A DNA stretch of 50,411 nt from Dehalococcoidia bacterium (lineage in GTDB: Bacteria > Chloroflexota > Dehalococcoidia > GIF9 > AB-539-J10): the NCBI GenBank assembly GCA_003552465.1, contig PULQ01000053.1, positions 1-50,411 of the forward strand, given 5' to 3'. Below, one piece after another: positions 953 through 50,411 of the stretch (positions within the stretch are counted from its first letter, which is position 1; every line of letters starts with the position of its first letter). Under the pieces are notes generated by a model. The model saw only the letters and a list, made by a program, of their open reading frames with translations. It ran no database searches and had not been told where the DNA came from. Made by a program: the position numbers and the translations under genes.

Positions 953-1446
953 GCGGTAGAGTGTTGCCGCACGAGGCTAAAGCCTCGTACTACATCTGAG
1001 CGAGGCGTTGATCTCTGACCGCTGATGGCTGAAGGCCTATCCTCAGTCTCGTAACTCCTGCCGATTTCATCGAGCATCCTCGACGGAGTCGGGACCCAAA
1101 CCCACTCTTGTTCCTTTACTTCGTTCAAGGACAGGCCTAAGAGGGCGGGCCAGATTCTTCGCCCCGACAAGTCCGGGCTCAGAATGACAGGGGGAGGCGA
1201 CAAGTCGGGACCCTAGCCCCCTCCTATTCCTTCACTTCGTTCAAGGACAGGCCTGAGAGGGGGGACTCGATGCTGGGCTGTCATCCTACGAGGGGAAACC
1301 AGCGTTGCGGTCTGAAATCTGAAGGCTGACTGCCGCCCCTGTCATCGCGAACACCCGCGGCTCTGCAGAGGGTGTGCGGCGATCTCGACGATCCGCGGGA
1401 TTGCTTCGTTGTCCCGACGGGCCGGAGTTCGGGGTCAAGCCGGGAC

Positions 1447-4065
1447 CTATTCCCGGTCTTTCAGCAGGAAGAGCCACCTGCCGGGATCGTCGGGGTAGTA
1501 GTCGAACGCGCGGAGTCTGATCCACCCGGAAGAACCGAAACTGAAGTCATCCAGGTAGTAGGAACCGTCGCCCACCCAGAGGTGGTTCTTCTCGTTCACC
1601 CAGTCTTTCAGGTTGTCCATGCGCGGGCCGACCTCGTCAGCGAAGCTGCCCAGGCCTGCGCCGGAGTACTGCGCGTCGATGAACTCGTAGTAAGGAACGC
1701 TGGCGTCCTCGTAGTCACCGGGGTCGAGAGCGCGTATGCCCTCCAGGTGGCCCGCCAGCGCGCCCAGTTGGACGTCCCTGTCGAGGAAGTCGGTCCAGCC
1801 CAGATCCGTTCCCTGGGCCTTGGTCTCACCGAAGGCCATGCTTCCGGCCCTCTCACCCCTTATGCCGAGGGCGATGGTGTGCCAGAAGCCGTTGCCCGGT
1901 GCGTAGTTCGGGTAACCGGTGCCGACCATGCGCTCGGCGTCCATCTCCGGCGAGGTCTCGACCTTCTTCGACCAGGTCTCGACCTTCAGTCCGACATCAT
2001 CCTCAGGGTTGACCGTGAACCTGACACCGATGGTGGTCTCGTATGTGGAGGCAATCTGCGATGCTGCTCCAGGATCATACATCGGGTTCACGCCCTCGCC
2101 CCGGGCGCGGTCATAGGGCAGGATCCAGCCGTAGAGGAAGTCGGCGAAGGAGAGCGTGCTCCCATCGTGCAGCGGGTGGCCCCAGATGTCCCGGGGGTAG
2201 TAGGCGACCGAGTAGCAGTCGACAAGCGTATCGTCAAGTGCCCACGGCTCGCCCTCATTGCCCGCGTCCAGCGCGTCGCCCACGGTTATCACCGACTGCG
2301 TCTCCCAGTCCCAGGCACGCCAGGCATCAACGGGAGCGCTGATATTGCCCGCGAAGTCCAGCGTCACCCAGTCGTGAGTGGCGGTTGCCGGAAAACCGGC
2401 CGTTACGGTTACCTCCGCCCTGTCGATGCGTCCCGGCCAGCACAGTCCGTCGCGCACGTCGGGGTGGGTGCCCCTGTCGCCGGTGGCCCGGACGGGGAAC
2501 ATGTCGTAGACGGTGTTGGAGCCGGCAACCGGGTTCCAGGGCTCGACCAGCAGGTCGTGCATGGCTACCCTGAGGTTTCCGCCGAACATCGGGTTGCCCG
2601 CGCCGTCGCGAAAGTGCGCCGTCAGGGCCCACATCCAGGAGCCGGGTATGCCGCCCTCGGTGCCGGCCGCCAGGTCCACGTTCGTCCTCAGCGGCGAGTA
2701 TTCCATGTTGTCAACGAGGTAGAACATGCCCCACTTCATGTGCGCCGGCAGGCAGATCTCGTACAGTGCATCGCGCTCGGCAAGGCTTGAGAACTCAAGA
2801 AAGGCCAGGTCGAAGGCTGCGTCATAGAACCAGCCCGGGACGTCCAGGTACTTGTAAGCCACTATTCCTGAATGCCAGAAATCGGTGTGGAAGTAGAGGT
2901 ACCAGTACCCCGAGTCGCGGGAGAGCTCGGAGGACATCCAGCCCCCCGTGTAAAGGTTCCAGCCGCCGCTGATGATCTCCGCCTCATCGTTGTGCGGAGG
3001 AGGACCGAACCAGCCTTCCCAATACCGGGGCGTAAAGACGAAGCCCATCCTCTCGATCTGCTCACCCACGTACTCACCGATGGCCGTGCGCACCGGATCC
3101 CACGAGGTGTAGAAAAGGCCTGTTAACTCGATCGGCTCGCCATCGTAGAGCCATCCGGTGGCGGCATCACCGGTGATGTCGCCGGGAACAAGTTCATCTA
3201 TAGCGGACATCGTCTCGTTCAGCCAGAGCAGGCCGGTAACCTCATCGTATCCGTACTCGTCCTCTAGATACCGGATGCCGGACTTCCCGGCGATGTGCGT
3301 GCCATCGTAGTACCTGGCGTAGTCCGGAAGCTGAGTGTGCTGAGACGTGAACTTCGGCCAGGCCAGGCCGCCCGCGATGACACCGGCTATGTGCTCGCGG
3401 TCGATGAACTTGTTCAGGACCTCGTTCATCGTGCGCACGCCCTCAGGGAAGTCGAACAGGTAGAAGGGGTTCAACGTTTCATCGGTGAAGGTGGGGCCAT
3501 AGGGGTTGATGTGCAGGGTGTTGAACGAGCATATGCTGCTCTTGTACCACAGGTCGGGGTCATCGTCCACGATTTCGAAGAGCTCTTGCGAGTCAAGGGT
3601 GTGTGCATAGACATCGAAGTCGCCCGCCTGCAGCCGCAGCACTGCCGACGTACCGTCCGGTTCCCTCTCGATCAGAATCTCGTCCAGCCAGAAGACACGA
3701 CTCGCCGCAAAGCTGGCTGTAACCGTCACAGCTGACGCGGGCATGGTGAAGCCGGTTGTCGGCGAATGAGCGTCGTCGAACGCCACCGCAGGACTGGAGG
3801 TCCACTTGACGAACCTGAAGCAGCGCTCTCCATCTACCGTGATGTTGACCGTAGCACCAGGGGCGTAGCTCGGACCACCATCCACAAGAGATGCTGTGCC
3901 GGCTCCGGCGGGAGATACCTGCAGCGTAACCCTGTAGGAAGGGGCACCACAGCCCGGCACGACCATCGCCGTGACGATGCCCCCGGCAATCAAACCCACC
4001 AGGAGCTTCCGCAGGACGCTCCCCGCGAGGTACCGGCATGAGCGCGAACCAGAAGTTCTCTCCAT
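1447..4065 (-). CDS. Family 5 extracellular solute-binding lipoprotein (peptide/nickel ABC type) with N-terminal InlB-B/'Bacterial repeat' domain
   Basis: 872 aa; lipobox-like VVPGCG; N-terminal YRVTLQVSPAGAGTASL...FTMPASAVTVTASF repeat domain; closely paralogous to the 850 aa ORF at 9831..12383. Confidence 0.85.
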   Translation of the reverse strand: MERTSGSRSCRYLAGSVLRKLLVGLIAGGIVTAMVVPGCGAPSYRVTLQVSPAGAGTASLVDGGPSYAPGATVNITVDGERCFRFVKWTSSPAVAFDDAHSPTTGFTMPASAVTVTASFAASRVFWLDEILIEREPDGTSAVLRLQAGDFDVYAHTLDSQELFEIVDDDPDLWYKSSICSFNTLHINPYGPTFTDETLNPFYLFDFPEGVRTMNEVLNKFIDREHIAGVIAGGLAWPKFTSQHTQLPDYARYYDGTHIAGKSGIRYLEDEYGYDEVTGLLWLNETMSAIDELVPGDITGDAATGWLYDGEPIELTGLFYTSWDPVRTAIGEYVGEQIERMGFVFTPRYWEGWFGPPPHNDEAEIISGGWNLYTGGWMSSELSRDSGYWYLYFHTDFWHSGIVAYKYLDVPGWFYDAAFDLAFLEFSSLAERDALYEICLPAHMKWGMFYLVDNMEYSPLRTNVDLAAGTEGGIPGSWMWALTAHFRDGAGNPMFGGNLRVAMHDLLVEPWNPVAGSNTVYDMFPVRATGDRGTHPDVRDGLCWPGRIDRAEVTVTAGFPATATHDWVTLDFAGNISAPVDAWRAWDWETQSVITVGDALDAGNEGEPWALDDTLVDCYSVAYYPRDIWGHPLHDGSTLSFADFLYGWILPYDRARGEGVNPMYDPGAASQIASTYETTIGVRFTVNPEDDVGLKVETWSKKVETSPEMDAERMVGTGYPNYAPGNGFWHTIALGIRGERAGSMAFGETKAQGTDLGWTDFLDRDVQLGALAGHLEGIRALDPGDYEDASVPYYEFIDAQYSGAGLGSFADEVGPRMDNLKDWVNEKNHLWVGDGSYYLDDFSFGSSGWIRLRAFDYYPDDPGRWLFLLKDRE

Positions 4066-4819: not shown

Positions 4820-4878
4820 AGGAGAGGAGAGAGGTCGGGACTCCTCGCAATGACGCGGTAGAGGGTTGCCGCACGAGG

Positions 4879-4930
4879 TGCCGATGTAATCGGGTGCCGA
4901 CTGTCTCGAGCATCCTCGACGAAGTCGGGA
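4879..4930. repeat. Small palindromic element (52 bp form) inside another repeat
   Basis: tgccgatgtaatcgggtgccgactgtctcgagcatcctcgacgaagtcggga between gcacgagg and ctaaagcctcg; the uninterrupted version is at 969..993. Confidence 0.8.
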
Positions 4931-5117
4931 CTAAAGCCTCGTGCTACATCTGAGCAAGGCGTTGATCTCTGACCGCTGATGGCTGAAGGCTTGGCCTGAC
5001 TATCGTAACTCCCCCTAACCCCCTCTTATCCTAAGAGGGGGGACTAATAGCTGAAGGCTGAGTGCTGATGGCTGGGGGCTGAGTGCTGATAGCCGAAAGA
5101 TGACTGCTGACCGCCTG

Positions 5118-9830: not shown

Positions 9831-12383
9831 CTAGTCAAGGTCTTCCAGCAGGAAGAACCATCGGTCTCTCTCGTCGGGGTAGGCCTCGAACGCGGCCAGC
9901 CTGACCCAGTTGAGGGCGAAGCTGTAGTCGTCCAGGTAGTAGGGACCGGCGCCGACCCACAGGTGGTTCAACTCGCCGACGAAGTCCTTCAGGTTGTCCA
10001 TGCGCACGTCGACCTCGGCAGCGAAGCTGCCCAGGCCTGCAGCGCCATACTGGGCGTTGATGAACTCGTAGTACGGCACATTATCGTCGGAGTAGGCAGT
10101 GGCAGCGCGTATGCCGTCGAGGGAGCCGACCAACGCGCCCAACTGGACGTCCCTGTTAAGGAAGTTAATCCAGCCGAGAGGCAGAGGCTGGCCCTTCAGC
10201 TCACCGAAGGCCATCTCGCCGGCGCGCTCGCCGCGGATACCGAGGGCAAGGGTATGCCAGTAGCCGTTACCCTGCGCGTAGTTGGGGTACATGTTGGTGA
10301 CCATGCGCTCGGCGTCCATCTCCCAGAGCTTGGACCAGGTCTCGACCTTCAGGCCGAAGTCATCCGCCGCCCCACCCACGGTGAACTTGATCCCGATGGT
10401 GTTGGCGTAGGTGCTGGCCAGAGCGGTTCTTGCTGCCGAATCAAACATCGGGTTCACGTCCTCGCCCTGACCGCGGTCGAAGGGGATAATATAGCCGTAG
10501 AGGAAGTCGGCGTAGGAGAGCGGGCTGCCGCAGTGCAGCGGGTGGTCCCAGATGTCCTCAGGGAAGTAGGCGACCGAGTAGCGGTCGACCACTGCTGTGT
10601 CGAGGCCCCACTCCGCATCGGGATCGGCAAGCGCCTCAGCCACGGTGACGATCGACTGCGTCTCCCAGTCCCAGGCACGCCAGGCGTCGTCGGGAGCGGT
10701 GATGGTTTCCTCGAAGTCCAGCGTCACCCAGGGATTGGTCTGGATGGCGGGCAGACCCTCGGTGATGGTAACCTCGGCACGGTCGATGCGTCCATCCCAG
10801 CGCAGTCCGTCGCGCGGGTCGGGGTGCGTGCCCATGTCGCCGGTGGCCCTGATCGGGAACATGTCGTAGACGGTGTTGGAGCCGGCGATCGGGTTCCAGG
10901 GCTCGACCAGCAGGTCGTGCATGCCTACCCGCATATGTCCGCCGAAGACGGGGCTGCTTTCGCGGAAGTGCGCGGTCAGGGCCCACGTCCAGGAACCGTA
11001 GATGCCGCCCGCGCCGTCCGCCGCCAGATCAACATTGGTCCTGAGCGGCGAGAAGCCGCGGGTGTCGGTCAGCTGGATCATGCCGTACTTCATGTGTGTC
11101 GGCAGGGCTATCTCGTACAGCGCGTCGCGCTCCTCAAAGCTGGTAAACAGAAGCCAAGCGAGCGCCCAGGCTGCATCGTAGTAGTCGTCTGGAACCTCGA
11201 GGTACTTGAAGGCCGGAATACCGGCTTCCCAGAAGGGGCTGTTGAAGTAGAGGAACCAGTAACCCGAGTCACGGGCGAGCACGGTGGATACCCACCCGCC
11301 GGTGTACATGCTCCAGTCACCACCCTGAATAGCCGACTCGACGTTGGCCAGACCGGACAGAGTGGCTGCCATGTCGCCCTTGAAGGGGGGGGCATCGAAG
11401 CCCATGGTCCGGAGTTGGGCCACGACATAGTCACCTATCTCGTCGCGAATGGGGTCGTCGTCCCTGATGGCGATTATCATGCGGATCGGCTCGCCGTCGT
11501 AGAGCCACCCGTCATCGGCACTGCCGGTGATGTCGCCGGGAGCGATTTCGTCGATCGCGGCCATCGTTGCGTTGAGCCAGTCCATGCCCTCTACCGGGTC
11601 GTACTCATACAGGTCCTCGAGGGCAGCGATGCTGGCATCCGCGGAGATGTAGGTGTCGTCGTAGTACCTGGCGTAGTCCGCAAGCTGGGTGTGCTGGCTG
11701 GTGTACCTCGGCCAGGCCAGGCCGGCCATAATCTCGCTGGCGATGAACTCGCGGTCGATGAACTTGTTAAAGACCTCGTTCATCGTGCGCACGCCCTCCG
11801 GGAAGTCGAACGAGTAGAAGGGGTTGACCATGCCATCGGTGAACTCAGGTCCGTAGGTGTTCGGCCGCATCGTATTGAACGAGCCGATGCTGCTCTTGAA
11901 GTAGAGATCCGGGTCCGCCTCCACCATTTCGAAGAGCTCCACATCGTCGAGGGTGTGGGCGTACACGTCATAATCGCCCGCCTGCAGCCTCAAAATTGCT
12001 GTGGACCCTAACGGCTGCTTCTCGATGGTTATGTAGTCGAGCCAGAATCCTTCGGTCCTCTCTTCCACGAAGTTGGCGGTGATGGTGGCGTCGCGGCTCG
12101 GCATGATGAAGGTGGCGCTTGCGCTGAACGCGTCAGGCTCGAAGAAGCCTGCAGTCGCGGTCCACCTGTCGAACGACCAGCCTTCGTTGGCTGTCGCCTG
12201 CACCGGGACCTCCTCATCCGGTTCGAAGGGCGATGTACCGGTGATGGACACCGTTCCCGCGCCCTCGGGCTCCACCGCGGTGGTCAGCTCAAAGGGACCT
12301 TCCACCTCGGGGGCACAGCCCGGGATCACCATTGCAGCTATGATTATCGCTGCAAGGAGAGGCATTAAAAACCTCTTTGCCAT
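9831..12383 (-). CDS. Family 5 extracellular solute-binding lipoprotein with N-terminal InlB-B/'Bacterial repeat' domain
   Basis: 850 aa; lipobox MVIPGCAPE; FELTTAVEPEGAGTVSI...FIMPSRDATITANF repeat; paralog of 1447..4065; heads the ABC operon. Confidence 0.87.
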   Translation of the reverse strand: MAKRFLMPLLAAIIIAAMVIPGCAPEVEGPFELTTAVEPEGAGTVSITGTSPFEPDEEVPVQATANEGWSFDRWTATAGFFEPDAFSASATFIMPSRDATITANFVEERTEGFWLDYITIEKQPLGSTAILRLQAGDYDVYAHTLDDVELFEMVEADPDLYFKSSIGSFNTMRPNTYGPEFTDGMVNPFYSFDFPEGVRTMNEVFNKFIDREFIASEIMAGLAWPRYTSQHTQLADYARYYDDTYISADASIAALEDLYEYDPVEGMDWLNATMAAIDEIAPGDITGSADDGWLYDGEPIRMIIAIRDDDPIRDEIGDYVVAQLRTMGFDAPPFKGDMAATLSGLANVESAIQGGDWSMYTGGWVSTVLARDSGYWFLYFNSPFWEAGIPAFKYLEVPDDYYDAAWALAWLLFTSFEERDALYEIALPTHMKYGMIQLTDTRGFSPLRTNVDLAADGAGGIYGSWTWALTAHFRESSPVFGGHMRVGMHDLLVEPWNPIAGSNTVYDMFPIRATGDMGTHPDPRDGLRWDGRIDRAEVTITEGLPAIQTNPWVTLDFEETITAPDDAWRAWDWETQSIVTVAEALADPDAEWGLDTAVVDRYSVAYFPEDIWDHPLHCGSPLSYADFLYGYIIPFDRGQGEDVNPMFDSAARTALASTYANTIGIKFTVGGAADDFGLKVETWSKLWEMDAERMVTNMYPNYAQGNGYWHTLALGIRGERAGEMAFGELKGQPLPLGWINFLNRDVQLGALVGSLDGIRAATAYSDDNVPYYEFINAQYGAAGLGSFAAEVDVRMDNLKDFVGELNHLWVGAGPYYLDDYSFALNWVRLAAFEAYPDERDRWFFLLEDLD

Positions 12384-12534: not shown

Positions 12535-12570
12535 ATTGCTTCGTCCCGATGTCATCGGGACTCGCAATGG
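12535..12570. repeat. Dispersed hairpin repeat
   Basis: ATTGC-tt-c-GTCCCGAT-gtc-ATCGGGAC-tc-GCAAT-gg. Confidence 0.85.
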
Positions 12571-18906: not shown

Positions 18907-19595
18907 ACCCGGGCTGGATACATCTGCTAGGAGTCTAACAGGAGAACGCCAGTTCCAGGCTCTGGGAGCGACACTACAGCGGTCTGTGCCTCAAACACTC
19001 AACAAGCTCCCTGTATCCACCCTACACGCAGACCGGGCCTCTGAACCACCAGGAAAACCCCGCACTGCCCGAAACGAATGGCCCGTCACTCCTGTAGTGC
19101 GAGGCTTCAGCCTCGCGCCACCCCCCCGAAACGAATCCCTCGTGTTCTAGCAACCGAACGGGCTCCCCGCACCCACCCCACACACGAAAAACGGGACTTT
19201 GAACCTCCCAAAAAAACGCAATGCACAAAACGAATCAGCCCCCCCGTGTAGTGCGAGGCTTCAGCCTCGCGCCACCCCCTTCACTCATCACCGTCCCCGC
19301 ACCCGTTCCTGCTGTCATCGAGAGCCCCAGCATACCCCCCTCTTGTCATCGCGAGGACAGACCTCCCGACTCCGACTTGAGCCGGGGTCGAAGATGCTCG
19401 ATGAAGTCGGCACTCGTTGTAATCGGCACAGTCTGGCCGTGGCGACCCCGCCTCTTCACCACTCACCATTAACCCTCCGCATCCTGCCCGGCGTGGGTTG
19501 CAGCGCCCCTGTTATGCCCATGAACGTCAGTCTACGAAGGCGTGTAGTACATCGGACGGCCAGATTCGGACCCCTTCACCGGCGGAGACCTCTGT

Positions 19596-45868: not shown

Positions 45869-45913
45869 GGGGGTTCGGAGTGATGAGTGAAGGGGGGCGG
45901 CGCGAGGCTAAAG

Positions 45914-45949
45914 TGCCGATCACATCGAGCACCCTGGATGAAGTCGGGG
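45914..45949. repeat. Small palindromic element (36 bp form) inside another repeat
   Basis: gcgaggctaaag[tgccgatcacatcgagcaccctggatgaagtcgggg]cctcgcactac. Confidence 0.8.
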
Positions 45950-46034
45950 CCTCGCACTACAGAGGCATTGGGGGCAAAGGCCCAGGCCCCGAGCGGGGAC
46001 AAGCCCCACTCCGACGAAGGGTCGGGATGGCGGG

Positions 46035-46544: not shown

Positions 46545-46950
46545 GCTGGGAATCCTCCTTCATCAGCGGTCAGGGGTGAGCGGTCAGCTTTCAGTTGTCA
46601 GGCGTTGGGGGTCGGGGGTCGGGGGTCTGCTGTCTGCTGTCATAACTCCCCTAGCCCCTCTTAGCTTAAGAGGGGGATTGAGCAATCGTCTTGTCCGGGG
46701 TCGGGGGTCAAGATGGGCAGAAGAGTACATCCTGAGTGAGATTCGTCGGTCGCTTCGCTTCCTCAGAATGACAGTTTTGATCAAAGCAATTTCCGGGACT
46801 GAACACCAGTGCTGCGGGAGGGGCTGGTGCAGTTGACTTAGAACAAGAGTTCTAGACCAAGGATAGCACGGGTTCCTGGATTCAGTCAAGGGGAAAATGT
46901 CCGTCTCGATCCGGGCGGTCGCGGTTGGAAGGGCAAGGGGCGGGGGGTTA

Positions 46951-47007: not shown

Positions 47008-47290
47008 ATCGCCACGGCCAGACTGCGTCTGGCCTCGCGATGACGAGAGAGGGGTGTGCGTCTGGTCTCGCGATGACGAGAGAGGGGTGCGTCTGGCCTC
47101 GCGATGACGAGAGAGGGGTGTGCGTCTGGCCTCGCGATGACGAGAGAGGGGTGTGCGTCTGGTCTCGCGATGACGAGAGAGGGGTGCGTCTGGTCTCGCG
47201 ATGACGAGAGAGGGGTGTGTCTGGTCTCGCGATGACGAGAGAGGGGTGTGTGTCTGGTCTCGCGATGACGAGAGAGGGGTGTGTCGGGGC
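47008..47290. repeat. Tandem array of ~31-33 bp repeats
   Basis: About 8 units of gcgtctgg(c/t)ctcgcgatgacgagagaggggtg(t), directly abutting with no spacers. Confidence 0.95.
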
Positions 47291-47336
47291 TCGGGATGAC
47301 AAGGGGGAGTGAAGAGTGAATGGTGGGAGAGGCGAG

Positions 47337-47487: not shown

Positions 47488-47769
47488 ATGGGAAAGATAA
47501 AGTCAATCGGGATGGCTGAGGCAAGGCCGAAGCTCACCCATCTTGTTGAAGAAGTCTGCGCCGGGGGAGATCCGTACCTGATAGTGTCCGGCAGCCGGGT
47601 GAAGGCAGTGCTCATGGGCATTGAACGGTACAATGACATGGTAGAGCGACTGGAAGACCTGAGCGATGCTGCCAGCCTGCTCCGGGCGGAGCTGGACCGT
47701 GAGCCGACCGTGTCTTTCGCTCAACACCTGGCGGAGTCTAAACAGGCAGAGAGCCGTGTATCGGCTTGA
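47488..47769 (+). CDS. Phd/YefM-family antitoxin
   Basis: SD aaggaggtcagcATG; MGKIKSIGMAEARPKLTHLVEEVCAGGDPYLIVSGSRVKAVLMGIERYNDM. Confidence 0.88.
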   Translation: MGKIKSIGMAEARPKLTHLVEEVCAGGDPYLIVSGSRVKAVLMGIERYNDMVERLEDLSDAASLLRAELDREPTVSFAQHLAESKQAESRVSA

Positions 47770-48010
47770 GATCAGTCAGACTGCCCACCGGCAGGTCCGG
47801 AAGCTTCCGGCATCCACCCGGGAGAGGATCAACAAGGCCATTGCGGGGCTGGGTGATGATCCCCGGCCATACGGCAGCAGAGAGCTAACAGCAGGCGAGG
47901 GATACAGGATTCGGGTGGGGGACTACCGTGTCCTGTACAGGGTTGATGATAAGTCCGGGACGGTCACTATCTACCGGGTGATGGGCAGGGAGGATGTCTA
48001 CCGGGGCTAG
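47756..48010 (+). CDS. RelE/ParE-family toxin
   Basis: GTG start overlapping antitoxin; VYRLEISQTAHRQVRKLPASTRERINKAIAGLGDDPRPYGSRELTAGEGYRIRVGDYRVLYRVDDKSGTVTIYRVMGREDVYR. Confidence 0.9.
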   Translation: MYRLEISQTAHRQVRKLPASTRERINKAIAGLGDDPRPYGSRELTAGEGYRIRVGDYRVLYRVDDKSGTVTIYRVMGREDVYRG

Positions 48011-48098
48011 AGTGAATGGCAAATAGTGAATGGTGAATAGTGAATAGTAAAGAGAAGCGAGTGACGAGTAACGAGTGATGAGAGGGCGGAGTGACGGG

Positions 48099-48135
48099 AT
48101 CGCCACGGCCAGACTGCGTCTGGCCTCGCGATGAC
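48099..48135. repeat. Dispersed hairpin repeat with ATCGC/GCGAT outer and GGCCAGA/TCTGGCC inner stem
   Basis: ATCGC-cac-GGCCAGA-ctgcg-TCTGGCC-tc-GCGAT-gac; same variant at 47008..47044. Confidence 0.85.
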
Positions 48136-48333
48136 GGGGGCTCGGAGTGATGAGTGAAGAGCAGTCAGCGATCAGCGGGACGAACCCGCCGATCTCGGTT
48201 GACAATAACCAGGAACTGCCGGATGAGCGCGGGTTCTCTGCCGGACCGAAAGAGTGTATAATTTCGTTGCCTCCGCAAGCTGATTGCTGTGCCTGGCAGG
48301 GGAAGGTTCTACTGTATGGAGGGAGGTTGAATA

Positions 48334-48540
48334 ATGCCAACGCTAAAGGAATTGCTAGACCAGTTACCGCCTGACCTGCAGGAGGAAGCCAAGGACTTCG
48401 TGGAGTTCTTACTGCAGAGGCGAGGTACGAGGGAGAATGGAGAGCTCAAGTTACAGTGGAGGGGAGCACTACGAGAGCTGAGGGACCGGTATACCTCGGT
48501 GGAACTCCAACACAAAGCTCTTGAATGGCGGGGTGACTGA
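48334..48540 (+). CDS. DUF2281-like/VapB-type antitoxin
   Basis: MPTLKELLDQLPPDLQEEAKDFVEFLLQRRG...; SD ggagggaggttgaataATG; overlaps PIN ORF by 1 nt. Confidence 0.75.
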   Translation: MPTLKELLDQLPPDLQEEAKDFVEFLLQRRGTRENGELKLQWRGALRELRDRYTSVELQHKALEWRGD

Positions 48541-48937
48541 TGTACCTCCTCGACAGTAACCTCTTCCTCGAACTTCTACTGGACCAACGTAAGGCGGATG
48601 AAGTTGAACAGCTGCTGCAAAGAACCCCGAGAGAGAAGCTGCACATCTCGGAGTTCTCAGTACACTCCATGGGCATCACTTTTTTCGCCATAAGCTGTTT
48701 GAAGTCTTTGCGCAGTTCCTGGGTGAACTAGTGGTGAAAGGCGGGGTTCGTGTGCTCAGGCTCTCTCTTCAGGACATTGGGGGACTGACGAGCATAGCGC
48801 AGCGATTCAAGCTGGACTTTGACGATGCCTATCAGTATGGAATTGCTGAGAAGTTCGACCTTGAGATCATCAGCTTCGATGGCGACTTCGATCGGACGGA
48901 AAGAGGCCGCAGGACACCAGCCCAGCTTGAAGTCTGA
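48540..48937 (+). pseudogene. PIN-domain toxin (VapC-like) split by a -1 frameshift at a T6C run
   Basis: Frame 1 MYLLDSNLFLELLLDQRKADEVEQLL...FSVHSMGITFF continues in -1 frame as RHKLFEVFAQFLGELVVKGGVRVLRLSLQDIGGLTSIAQRFKLDFDDAYQYGIAEKFDLEIISFDGDFDRTERGRRTP. Confidence 0.75.
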
Positions 48938-49077
48938 TGCCGACGAAGTCGGGAATCGCGAATCTCATCGGGACAGACGCCCTGAACTACCCAACCTGCC
49001 ATGAGGCGGCCCGTCACTGATCGCCGTTCGCGGTTCGCCCATAATCAGGCATAGTTGGCCGAGAACACGTCAGGGAA

Positions 49078-49182
49078 ACTGAGGGCAGTCGTGACGGGTG
49101 GGGTGGGGTTCATCGGGTCGCACTTGGTCGAGGGGTTGCTCGGATGGGGGGTGCAGGGTGGCCGAGGGGGCTGGGAGTGACG
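49078..49182 (+). pseudogene. NAD(P)-dependent epimerase/dehydratase N-terminal remnant
   Basis: LRAVVTGGVGFIGSHLVEGLLGWGV: Rossmann GxxGxxG of extended SDR/GalE family; nothing of the rest of the protein follows. Confidence 0.6.
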
Positions 49183-49224
49183 AGAGATGAGTGGCGAGGG
49201 AAGGGGGGCGGCGCGAGGCTGAAG

Positions 49225-49260
49225 TGCCGATCACATCGAGCACCCTCGATGAAGGCGGGG
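49225..49260. repeat. Small palindromic element (36 bp form) inside another repeat
   Basis: gcgaggctgaag[tgccgatcacatcgagcaccctcgatgaaggcgggg]cctcgcactac. Confidence 0.8.
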
Positions 49261-49398
49261 CCTCGCACTACATCAATTGTGTGACTGCTGAGTGCTGACT
49301 GTTGGGTGCTGGGTTTGGGGGCTGGGGGTGATAGGATGGGATGTGTCAGGCTTGGGATGGCGGGATGGGGGTGTCGGGGCTCAGGGTGACAGGATGGC

Positions 49399-49755
49399 TT
49401 AGCGGGGGTAGACCCAGACGATTTCCTTCGCGGCCCGTTGCCATCTTCCCTGATCAGAAAGCTTCTGCCACTCCGCTGTGGTATATATGAGCAGGTCAAC
49501 GGGAACGGGAAGCGGGGTGGTATCGAATCCTGCAGGTCGCATCTCGAACGGCTGTGCCGAACTCTCCACAATGATCACCAGATCCAGATCGCTTCCCACC
49601 CCCCAATCGCCCCTGGCATAGGAGCCGAGATAGCCAATGCGCACGATCTCCCGGTGATGGGCGGTGATCTCTGCTACCCACTCATGTAATGTCCTGAGAA
49701 CCGTTTCCGGCTCAGGCCATTTGAGAATCGACGAACTCAACAATCTCACCGGCAT
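49399..49755 (-). CDS. MNT-domain nucleotidyltransferase (antitoxin of HEPN-MNT pair)
   Basis: GYLGSYARGDWGVGSDLDLVIIV motif; overlaps HEPN gene. Confidence 0.85.
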   Translation of the reverse strand: MPVRLLSSSILKWPEPETVLRTLHEWVAEITAHHREIVRIGYLGSYARGDWGVGSDLDLVIIVESSAQPFEMRPAGFDTTPLPVPVDLLIYTTAEWQKLSDQGRWQRAAKEIVWVYPR

Positions 49756-50101
49756 AACGGATCGCCTGTTCACTCTGCAGTCTGCCGTGGTGTTCGAAGG
49801 GAGAACCCTCGGGAAAAGAATCCGGATAGCGTGGAGAAATGTAGTAGACATCCAGCAGTTGTGCCTTTTCCACCAGTTCAGCGGGGATGCTGATAGCCCC
49901 GGGCAACTCGCGGATGAGTTTGGCGACTACATGTCCCCAGGCTTCCTGCCCGGAGTGCAGATGCAGGGCTTTGACAGCCTTCTCGGCCGCCTGCTGGGCG
50001 GCAAAGCAGGCCCATTCATGGTGCCCGGTACGCCGCGAGTCCTCAGCCTGCTCCAGGTCCTTGTGTGCCTGCCTCAACCAGTCACGGTCACGATTTGCCA
50101 T
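49712..50101 (-). CDS. HEPN-domain protein (toxin of HEPN-MNT pair)
   Basis: MANRDRDWLRQAHKDLEQAEDSRRTGHHEWACFAAQQAAEKAVKALHLHSGQEAWGH: classic HEPN N-terminus. Confidence 0.88.
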   Translation of the reverse strand: MANRDRDWLRQAHKDLEQAEDSRRTGHHEWACFAAQQAAEKAVKALHLHSGQEAWGHVVAKLIRELPGAISIPAELVEKAQLLDVYYISPRYPDSFPEGSPFEHHGRLQSEQAIRYAGEIVEFVDSQMA

Positions 50102-50283
50102 CTGTTCCTCCGGTACATCATAGCTTACCACAGGATACCGTTTACCTTCTAATGCGGTGGGTGATGGGGAGGGCGTGGGCTTGTCCTCTGTAGCGGGGCC
50201 CTTGAGGGGAGGGAGGCGCGAGGCTGAAGCCTCGCACTACAGGGGTGCCGGGGGCGGGGAGTGATGAGTGAAGGGGCGGGAAG

Positions 50284-50411
50284 CAGGGGGCAGGGGCCAG
50301 GGGGCAGGGGCCAGGGGTCAGGGGTCAGGGGTCAGGGGCCAGGGGTCAGGGGTCAGGGGCCAGGGGCCAGGGGTCAGGGGCCAGGGGCCAGGGGTCAGGG
50401 GCCAGGGGCCA
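50284..50411. repeat. Heptanucleotide tandem repeat caggggY running off the window edge
   Basis: Uninterrupted caggggc/caggggt/caggggg units from 50284 to the end. Confidence 0.95.

Follow-up and report, generated by a model that had tools for sequence, protein, structure and literature searches.

The window, the whole stretch of 50,411 nucleotides of Dehalococcoidia DNA analysed here, contains several copies of a 36-bp unit (consensus TGCCGATTNCATCGAGCATCCTCGACAAAGTCGGGA) which is, with very little doubt, a mobile double-hairpin element. The unit probably represents a non-coding and non-autonomous family of about 36 bp, which may be moved as single-stranded DNA by an HUH-type enzyme acting in trans. 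The movement is best seen in genes. In one genome (G045), an mtaB-like (MiaB-type) gene, named from its sequence, carries 36 bp in frame and reads LWEKE-MPTSASILGEVG-TSPGSG. The orthologs of the closest congeners are exactly 36 bp shorter (435 versus 471 nt), and the 12 aligned orthologs show an uninterrupted GAAA^CC, or the corresponding local sequence, with nothing inserted, duplicated or lost, at the position where the insertion site of G045 reads GAAA^CCAG. In a second gene, from genome G005, the element is placed in frame in the opposite orientation (372 versus 336 nt) and is absent in four orthologs. As 12 and four empty orthologs, respectively, stand against one filled gene each, gain is the simple reading, and target duplication is absent at both sites.

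In each of the two genes the insertion adds 36 nt, that is 12 codons. At least five of the six reading frames are open in 27 of 30 copies, which is more than in random 36-mers of the same composition. Insertions within genes are therefore tolerable, since most copies leave at least five frames open. A further copy, together with its host repeat H5, lies in a long open frame resembling a helicase in a distant genome (G183). In locus L091 of G183, a long open frame encodes several repeat-like peptides, e.g. LTPNPFPAREGE and FDRPAREGER, so that in-frame insertion may not be limited to this element but extend to further dispersed repeats.

These in-frame insertions in unrelated genes also bear on the suggestion that the unit is a selected terminator or protein-binding motif which was multiplied by gene conversion. 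Such a motif would be consistent with the mostly intergenic position of the copies and with the conserved hairpin structure, but the hairpin loops are variable in sequence and no element match was found in 8 of the 20 genomes of the genus, making this explanation extremely improbable.

Within the window itself, a filled and an empty site can be compared by direct reading. The palindrome H1 is uninterrupted at 969-990 (GCACGAGG^CTAAAGCCTCGTAC), and at 4871-4944 the same palindrome is split into GCACGAGG and CTAAAGCCTCGTGC by 52 bp (4879-4930). The downstream 87 bp show 89% identity (972-1058 versus 4926-5012), and the upstream stretch actcctcgcaatgacgcggtagagKgttgcc is common to both duplicates, so that the filled/empty pair claimed in a preliminary description of this DNA is genuine and consists of two duplicated segments. 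It is moreover reciprocal, because the first duplicate contains a 36-bp copy at the end of the duplicated segment (1059-1094, gtaactcc-element-ccc...) exactly where the second one is empty (5012^5013). The 52-bp insert had been taken for one foldable palindrome. It is real but composite, consisting of a 16-nt single hairpin (4879-4894) followed by a full 36-bp unit (4895-4930), and its fold differs from the one that had been drawn. Two other full copies (45914-45949 and 49225-49260) use the same host palindrome in the opposite arm, with AAAG^CCTC instead of the GAGG^CTAA of the 4879-4930 insert. Altogether, the 36-bp pattern gave four matches in the window when up to three mismatches were allowed, versus 0.00 expected from 100 shuffles. 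The features are listed in Table 1.

Table 1. Element copies, single-hairpin forms and host repeats in the window
Feature	Position	Strand	Basis
H1 host palindrome, empty (GCACGAGG^CTAAAGCCTCGTAC), then CTAC	969..990	+	direct reading; repeat pair
36-bp element in host H2 (TAACTCC^CCC...); duplicate empty at 5012^5013	1059..1094	+	62 bits
H1 left arm of filled copy	4871..4878	+	direct reading
Single-hairpin remnant TGCCGATGTAATCGGG, left end of the 52-bp insert	4879..4894	+	17-mer pattern, 1 mismatch
Full 36-bp double-hairpin element	4895..4930	+	pattern and covariance search, 54.6 bits
H1 right part of filled copy, then CTAC	4931..4944	+	direct reading
H2 host repeat, empty	5006..5041	+	
17-bp single-hairpin form TCCCGA-TGTCA-TCGGGA	12544..12560	+	17-mer pattern
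H1, empty	19093..19116	-	
H1, empty	19247..19270	-	
Degenerate, internally nested copy in host H4 (CCAGACTG^...GTCTG)	19364..19428	-	36.8 bits
36-bp element in H1 (45900-45961), right-arm AAAG^CCTC; terminal T-A to C-G	45914..45949	+	
H2 host repeat, empty	46643..46676	+	
17-bp single-hairpin form TGCCGA-CGAAG-TCGGGA	48938..48954	+	17-mer pattern
36-bp element in H1 (49211-49272), right-arm position	49225..49260	+	
H1, empty	50218..50241	+	

The window shows some additional features. Two genes of the minus strand (1447-4065 and 9831-12383) code for paralogous solute-binding-like proteins (SBP_bac_5), each with a domain at the N-terminus that resembles InlB B-repeats, and the ATPase genes of an oligopeptide ABC transporter lie between them. 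A tandem array of alternating 31/33-bp units derived from part of host repeat H4 (GTCTGGCCTCGCGATGACGAGAGAGGGG) is found at 47024-47300. A small toxin-antitoxin-like gene cluster (47488-50131) comprises a Phd/YefM antitoxin with a ParE-type toxin, a nucleotidyltransferase with HEPN, and DUF2281 followed by a putative PIN-like frame. Finally, a 7-bp tandem repeat (CAGGGGC) at 50284-50411 runs off the contig end and is probably the break point of the assembly.

About 47 copies were examined, originating from 15 carrier genomes: 12 of the 20 genomes of the genus and, elsewhere in the class, three genomes from two distant families (f49 and f33). A Chloroflexota MAG and a Dehalococcoidia MAG are among the carriers, and G045 and the window's genome have the most element matches of all of them. 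The copies of the genus were collected by pattern and covariance searches, and their numbers are to be read as minimum values, with no more than 150 first-look candidates per genome scored in the covariance search. A control with the reversed pattern gave zero copies. Three of five matches in genome contigs (L056 Fibrobacteres, L058 Litorirhabdus and L059 Pseudomonas) were discarded as chance matches lacking the right half of the element, and no junction of H1 and the element was found in viral contigs.

The unit reads TGCCGA-N5-TCGAGCA followed directly by TCCTCGA-N5-TCGGGA. Its conserved positions form two adjacent 18-nt hairpins (1-18 and 19-36) in inverted arrangement, each with a one-base bulge at mirror positions, TGCCGA-N5-TCG(A)GCA and TCC(T)CGA-N5-TCGGGA. 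In an alignment of 27 distinct rows 97.2% of the cells pair, with eight both-side changes versus 1.7 in shuffled alignments (0/500). In an enlarged set of 45 rows (40 distinct) the both-side changes amount to 14 versus 2.3 (again 0/500). The single long nested palindrome favoured by the preliminary description was rejected, as its covariation stays at the level of the shuffles (255/500 and 146/500), and RNAalifold, unaided, also picked the two hairpins. Among the compensated changes, three H1 copies have C-G instead of T19-A36, four copies have G-C instead of A25-T31, and a distant family has C-G instead of G2-C17. In the L117/L121 subfamily both T19-A36 and C20-G35 are replaced by G-C and T-A, and in L105 and L109 the bulge is lost, which results in a perfect stem. 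The collecting pattern is not biased to such changes because each of them costs two mismatches. The double hairpin has no energetic advantage, with DNA parameters giving about a tie and RNA parameters preferring the long hairpin, and energies by themselves could not settle the fold. The two side-by-side 18-nt hairpins are supported by the covariation.

Most copies are located at fixed positions in seven dispersed repeats, H1 to H7. Among the 47 copies, 18 lie in H3, nine in H2, seven in H1, two each in H5, H6 and H7, and one in H4; two more lie in the element itself, two in genes and one in an H2-like site, and L112 joins H3 when its end is extended by one base. A specificity for H1 is therefore not given: 40 of the 47 copies lie outside this GAGGCT-AGCCTC host, to which the element had originally been assigned, an outcome that the preliminary description had itself listed as counting against its reading. 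The element enters H2 at TAACTCC^CCTAGCCCC..., H3 at CTAAA^CAAATTC... (with AATT^ variants), H5 at CTCTCC^CATCGAGGGAGAGG and H6 in the loop of TCCCGATTT^CATCGGGA. Read in reverse, H1 itself is GTAG-tagged and REP-like (TGTAG-TGCGAGGCTTCAGCCTCGC). The window's genome holds 15 near matches to it, although no Y1/RAYT gene was found there. The element in H1 is consequently nested in a REP-like repeat.

Hairpin loops had been suggested as the target. The sites in H1, H4, H5 and H6 are indeed stem-loop junctions or loops, but those in H2 and H7 lie beside a hairpin, the A-rich H3-type repeats and the mtaB site have no evident hairpin, and some other sites are within stems, so that the loop is not the rule. 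H2, H3 and the gene sites instead share with the others a C immediately 3' of the element, which is found in 43 of 47 copies, with the base before the element being unconstrained. Counted by site class, which were drawn up by eye, this C is present in 13 of 14 (P=1.6e-6). A check for target-site duplication was negative for the host-repeat site classes as well as for the orthologous sites. Empty hosts also occur in the DNA examined: for H1, 56 distinct contexts at one arm position and 21 at the other, in counts that overlap; for H2, nine; and for H3-like sites, 22 by a loose pattern. Together with the empty orthologs, this supports the original view that the element is a tiny non-coding palindrome with clean insertion, often into other palindromic repeats. 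The further view that the copy at 969 is a pre-insertion site and not a deletion derivative holds in part: the orthologs exclude deletion for the family, though not formally for this single copy.

It could be argued that host and element spread together as composite repeats, in which case the empty and filled forms would be two old subfamilies of each host. The junctions are base-identical within H1, H2 and H3 in different species, which for H3 extends to different families of the class, and some composites could have spread as units. As a general explanation, however, this is improbable. The two genes with clean orthologous insertions are not such repeats, and the element is found in seven hosts that are unrelated to each other and, in L065 and L066, in itself, with nesting of up to three levels. 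The divergence of element and flank is uncorrelated (H2 r=-0.15, P=0.61; H3 r=0.15, P=0.17), at the low power given by 8-16 copies. In addition, an identical 27-nt inner insert is present at the same element position in two genomes, once in H1 (L114) and once in H2 (L118), from which we conclude that the element moves with its cargo and independently of the host. This third-level insert, CTCCGACAKGAGTCGCGAGTCATCGGA (L114, 501-563; L118, 501-562), has TCCGA/TCGGA ends and may represent a further family of this type.

Accidents of repair or replication, in which template switching at stalled forks in palindromes pastes hairpin fragments without any dedicated enzyme, would account for the preference for palindromes and self-insertion as well as for the 16-17-bp single-hairpin forms and internal variants. 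Set against this are the constancy of ends, length and the C rule over 14 site classes, the clean 36-bp insertions in genes and the junctions, which have no visible shared microhomology to explain the ends. We regard such accidents as an explanation of low probability.

For the movement of the double hairpin we tentatively propose an HUH mechanism. It appears to be the most likely one because the anatomy resembles that of IS200/IS605 and REPIN/RAYT single-strand transposition: the element has terminal hairpins, is very short, produces no target duplication, has a single target base on a fixed side and occurs in both orientations relative to genes. The enzyme would recognise both hairpins and cut beside the C, which corresponds to a cut directly behind the G of the opposite strand, and the element would be excised and joined as single-stranded DNA. 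A Y1/HUH transposase supplied in trans might be encoded elsewhere, lost, or missed in the incomplete genomes. The accumulation in repeats could partly reflect a preference for targets that are single-stranded or rich in hairpins and offer a suitable C, and partly the loss of insertions from genes.

The search for a RAYT/Y1 gene, which had been recommended from the start, detected none in the window's genome (86.7% complete). Among the 15 carriers, which are incomplete MAGs so that gene absences are soft, Y1_Tnp was found in seven and not in eight, the latter including G045 (93% complete), G006 and G009 (95%). No convincing element copy was found near the Y1 loci examined (best 9.6 bits, E 0.17), and the flanks conserve one base only and no tetra- or pentanucleotide of the IS200/IS605 kind. 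It is conceivable, if rather unlikely, that the untagged 36-bp double hairpin constitutes a distinct ultra-small class which depends on neither Y1 nor reverse transcriptase and is served by another enzyme requiring two hairpins and a target C.

Spread via RNA, with the transcribed hairpin pair being reverse transcribed or reverse spliced into DNA, has already been proposed for the closest structural analogue, the double-hairpin elements (DHE) of Allomyces mitochondria, based on the lack of target duplications (PMC2800124). Our element shares this lack, and its conserved fold is compatible with RNA. However, a reverse transcriptase (RVT_1) was found in only 2 of the 15 carriers and not in G045, G006 or the window's genome, RNA energies favour the long hairpin, and no known RNA family matches the window at Rfam gathering cut-offs; this route is accordingly quite improbable.

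The DHE of fungal mitochondrial DNA (Allomyces, Schizosaccharomyces) consist of two adjacent short hairpins and are mostly intergenic (PMC2800124, PMC10085805). Our element likewise has a conserved two-hairpin unit, is mostly intergenic and, as in Allomyces, is mobile without target duplication, but it is bacterial and differs by its mirrored bulges, the C rule and the in-frame gene insertions. The likeness is structural and by description, as sequences so short could not show shared ancestry.

REPINs are non-coding inverted pairs of palindromes with compensatory changes and no gene of their own (PMC3116915; PMC2817692), in the GI REPIN two 16-mers 71 bp apart. The two inverted, covarying 18-nt halves resemble such REP doublets moved by RAYT (TnpA_REP). 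The element is however much shorter, the unpaired GTAG tag of the REP/REPIN superfamily is absent from its consensus, and many carriers have no RAYT/Y1; with Y1 in seven of the 15 incomplete carrier genomes, no significant match, and hence no element-flanked RAYT (Y1_Tnp), was seen near the Y1 genes examined. REPs of the CGTC-tagged kind, among them RPE-4 and RPE-6 of Rickettsia, have a CGTC tag, a CCA tail and an 8-9-bp stem (PMC3733652). They share with our element short hairpins with 4-5-nt loops, dimers, the lack of a dedicated transposase and peptide-encoding intragenic copies (PMC3733652), whereas our consensus has neither tag nor tail, ends with TGCCGA/TCGGGA and has 6-bp stems with a bulge. 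RPEs in Rickettsia add in-frame peptides (PMC10969869), as does our element in its two genes.

Small palindromes within other palindromes are known as well: CGTC-1 dimers lie within palindromes of H. neapolitanus, and the GTAG-23 REPs of Thermomicrobium roseum sit inside small palindromes of which hundreds of target copies exist; intragenic REPs adding peptides have been described too (PMC3733652). Our element is similarly placed inside other dispersed palindromes, but GTAG-23 is a tagged REP with one target type, in contrast to an untagged element with at least seven host types. Like the source of the window, T. roseum belongs to the Chloroflexota. IS1397, ISKpn1 and IS621 insert in REP palindromes (PMC1525189) and are thus also mobile DNA targeting palindromic repeats, but as full insertion sequences with transposase genes, unlike our non-coding element. 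The imperfect TGCCGA/TCGGGA ends are reminiscent of classical MITEs, but no target-site duplication accompanies them at orthologous or host-repeat sites. A bacterial double-hairpin family of this kind was not found in the literature searched, which is not proof of absence. We conclude that the element is a new, untagged variant within the small palindromic mobile repeats, and that it is among the smallest mobile DNAs seen in bacteria.

With 36 bp the element comes near to the smallest size that mobile DNA can have, and its ends, orientation and target rule can all be read; the family in addition offers many natural filled/empty pairs. It bridges the biology of bacterial REPs and REPINs and that of the mitochondrial double-hairpin elements, for which the mechanism is not settled, and its two hairpins together with the C provide a clear bait in the search for the enzyme. 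The in-frame insertions show that the element also remodels proteins, by 12 residues per event.
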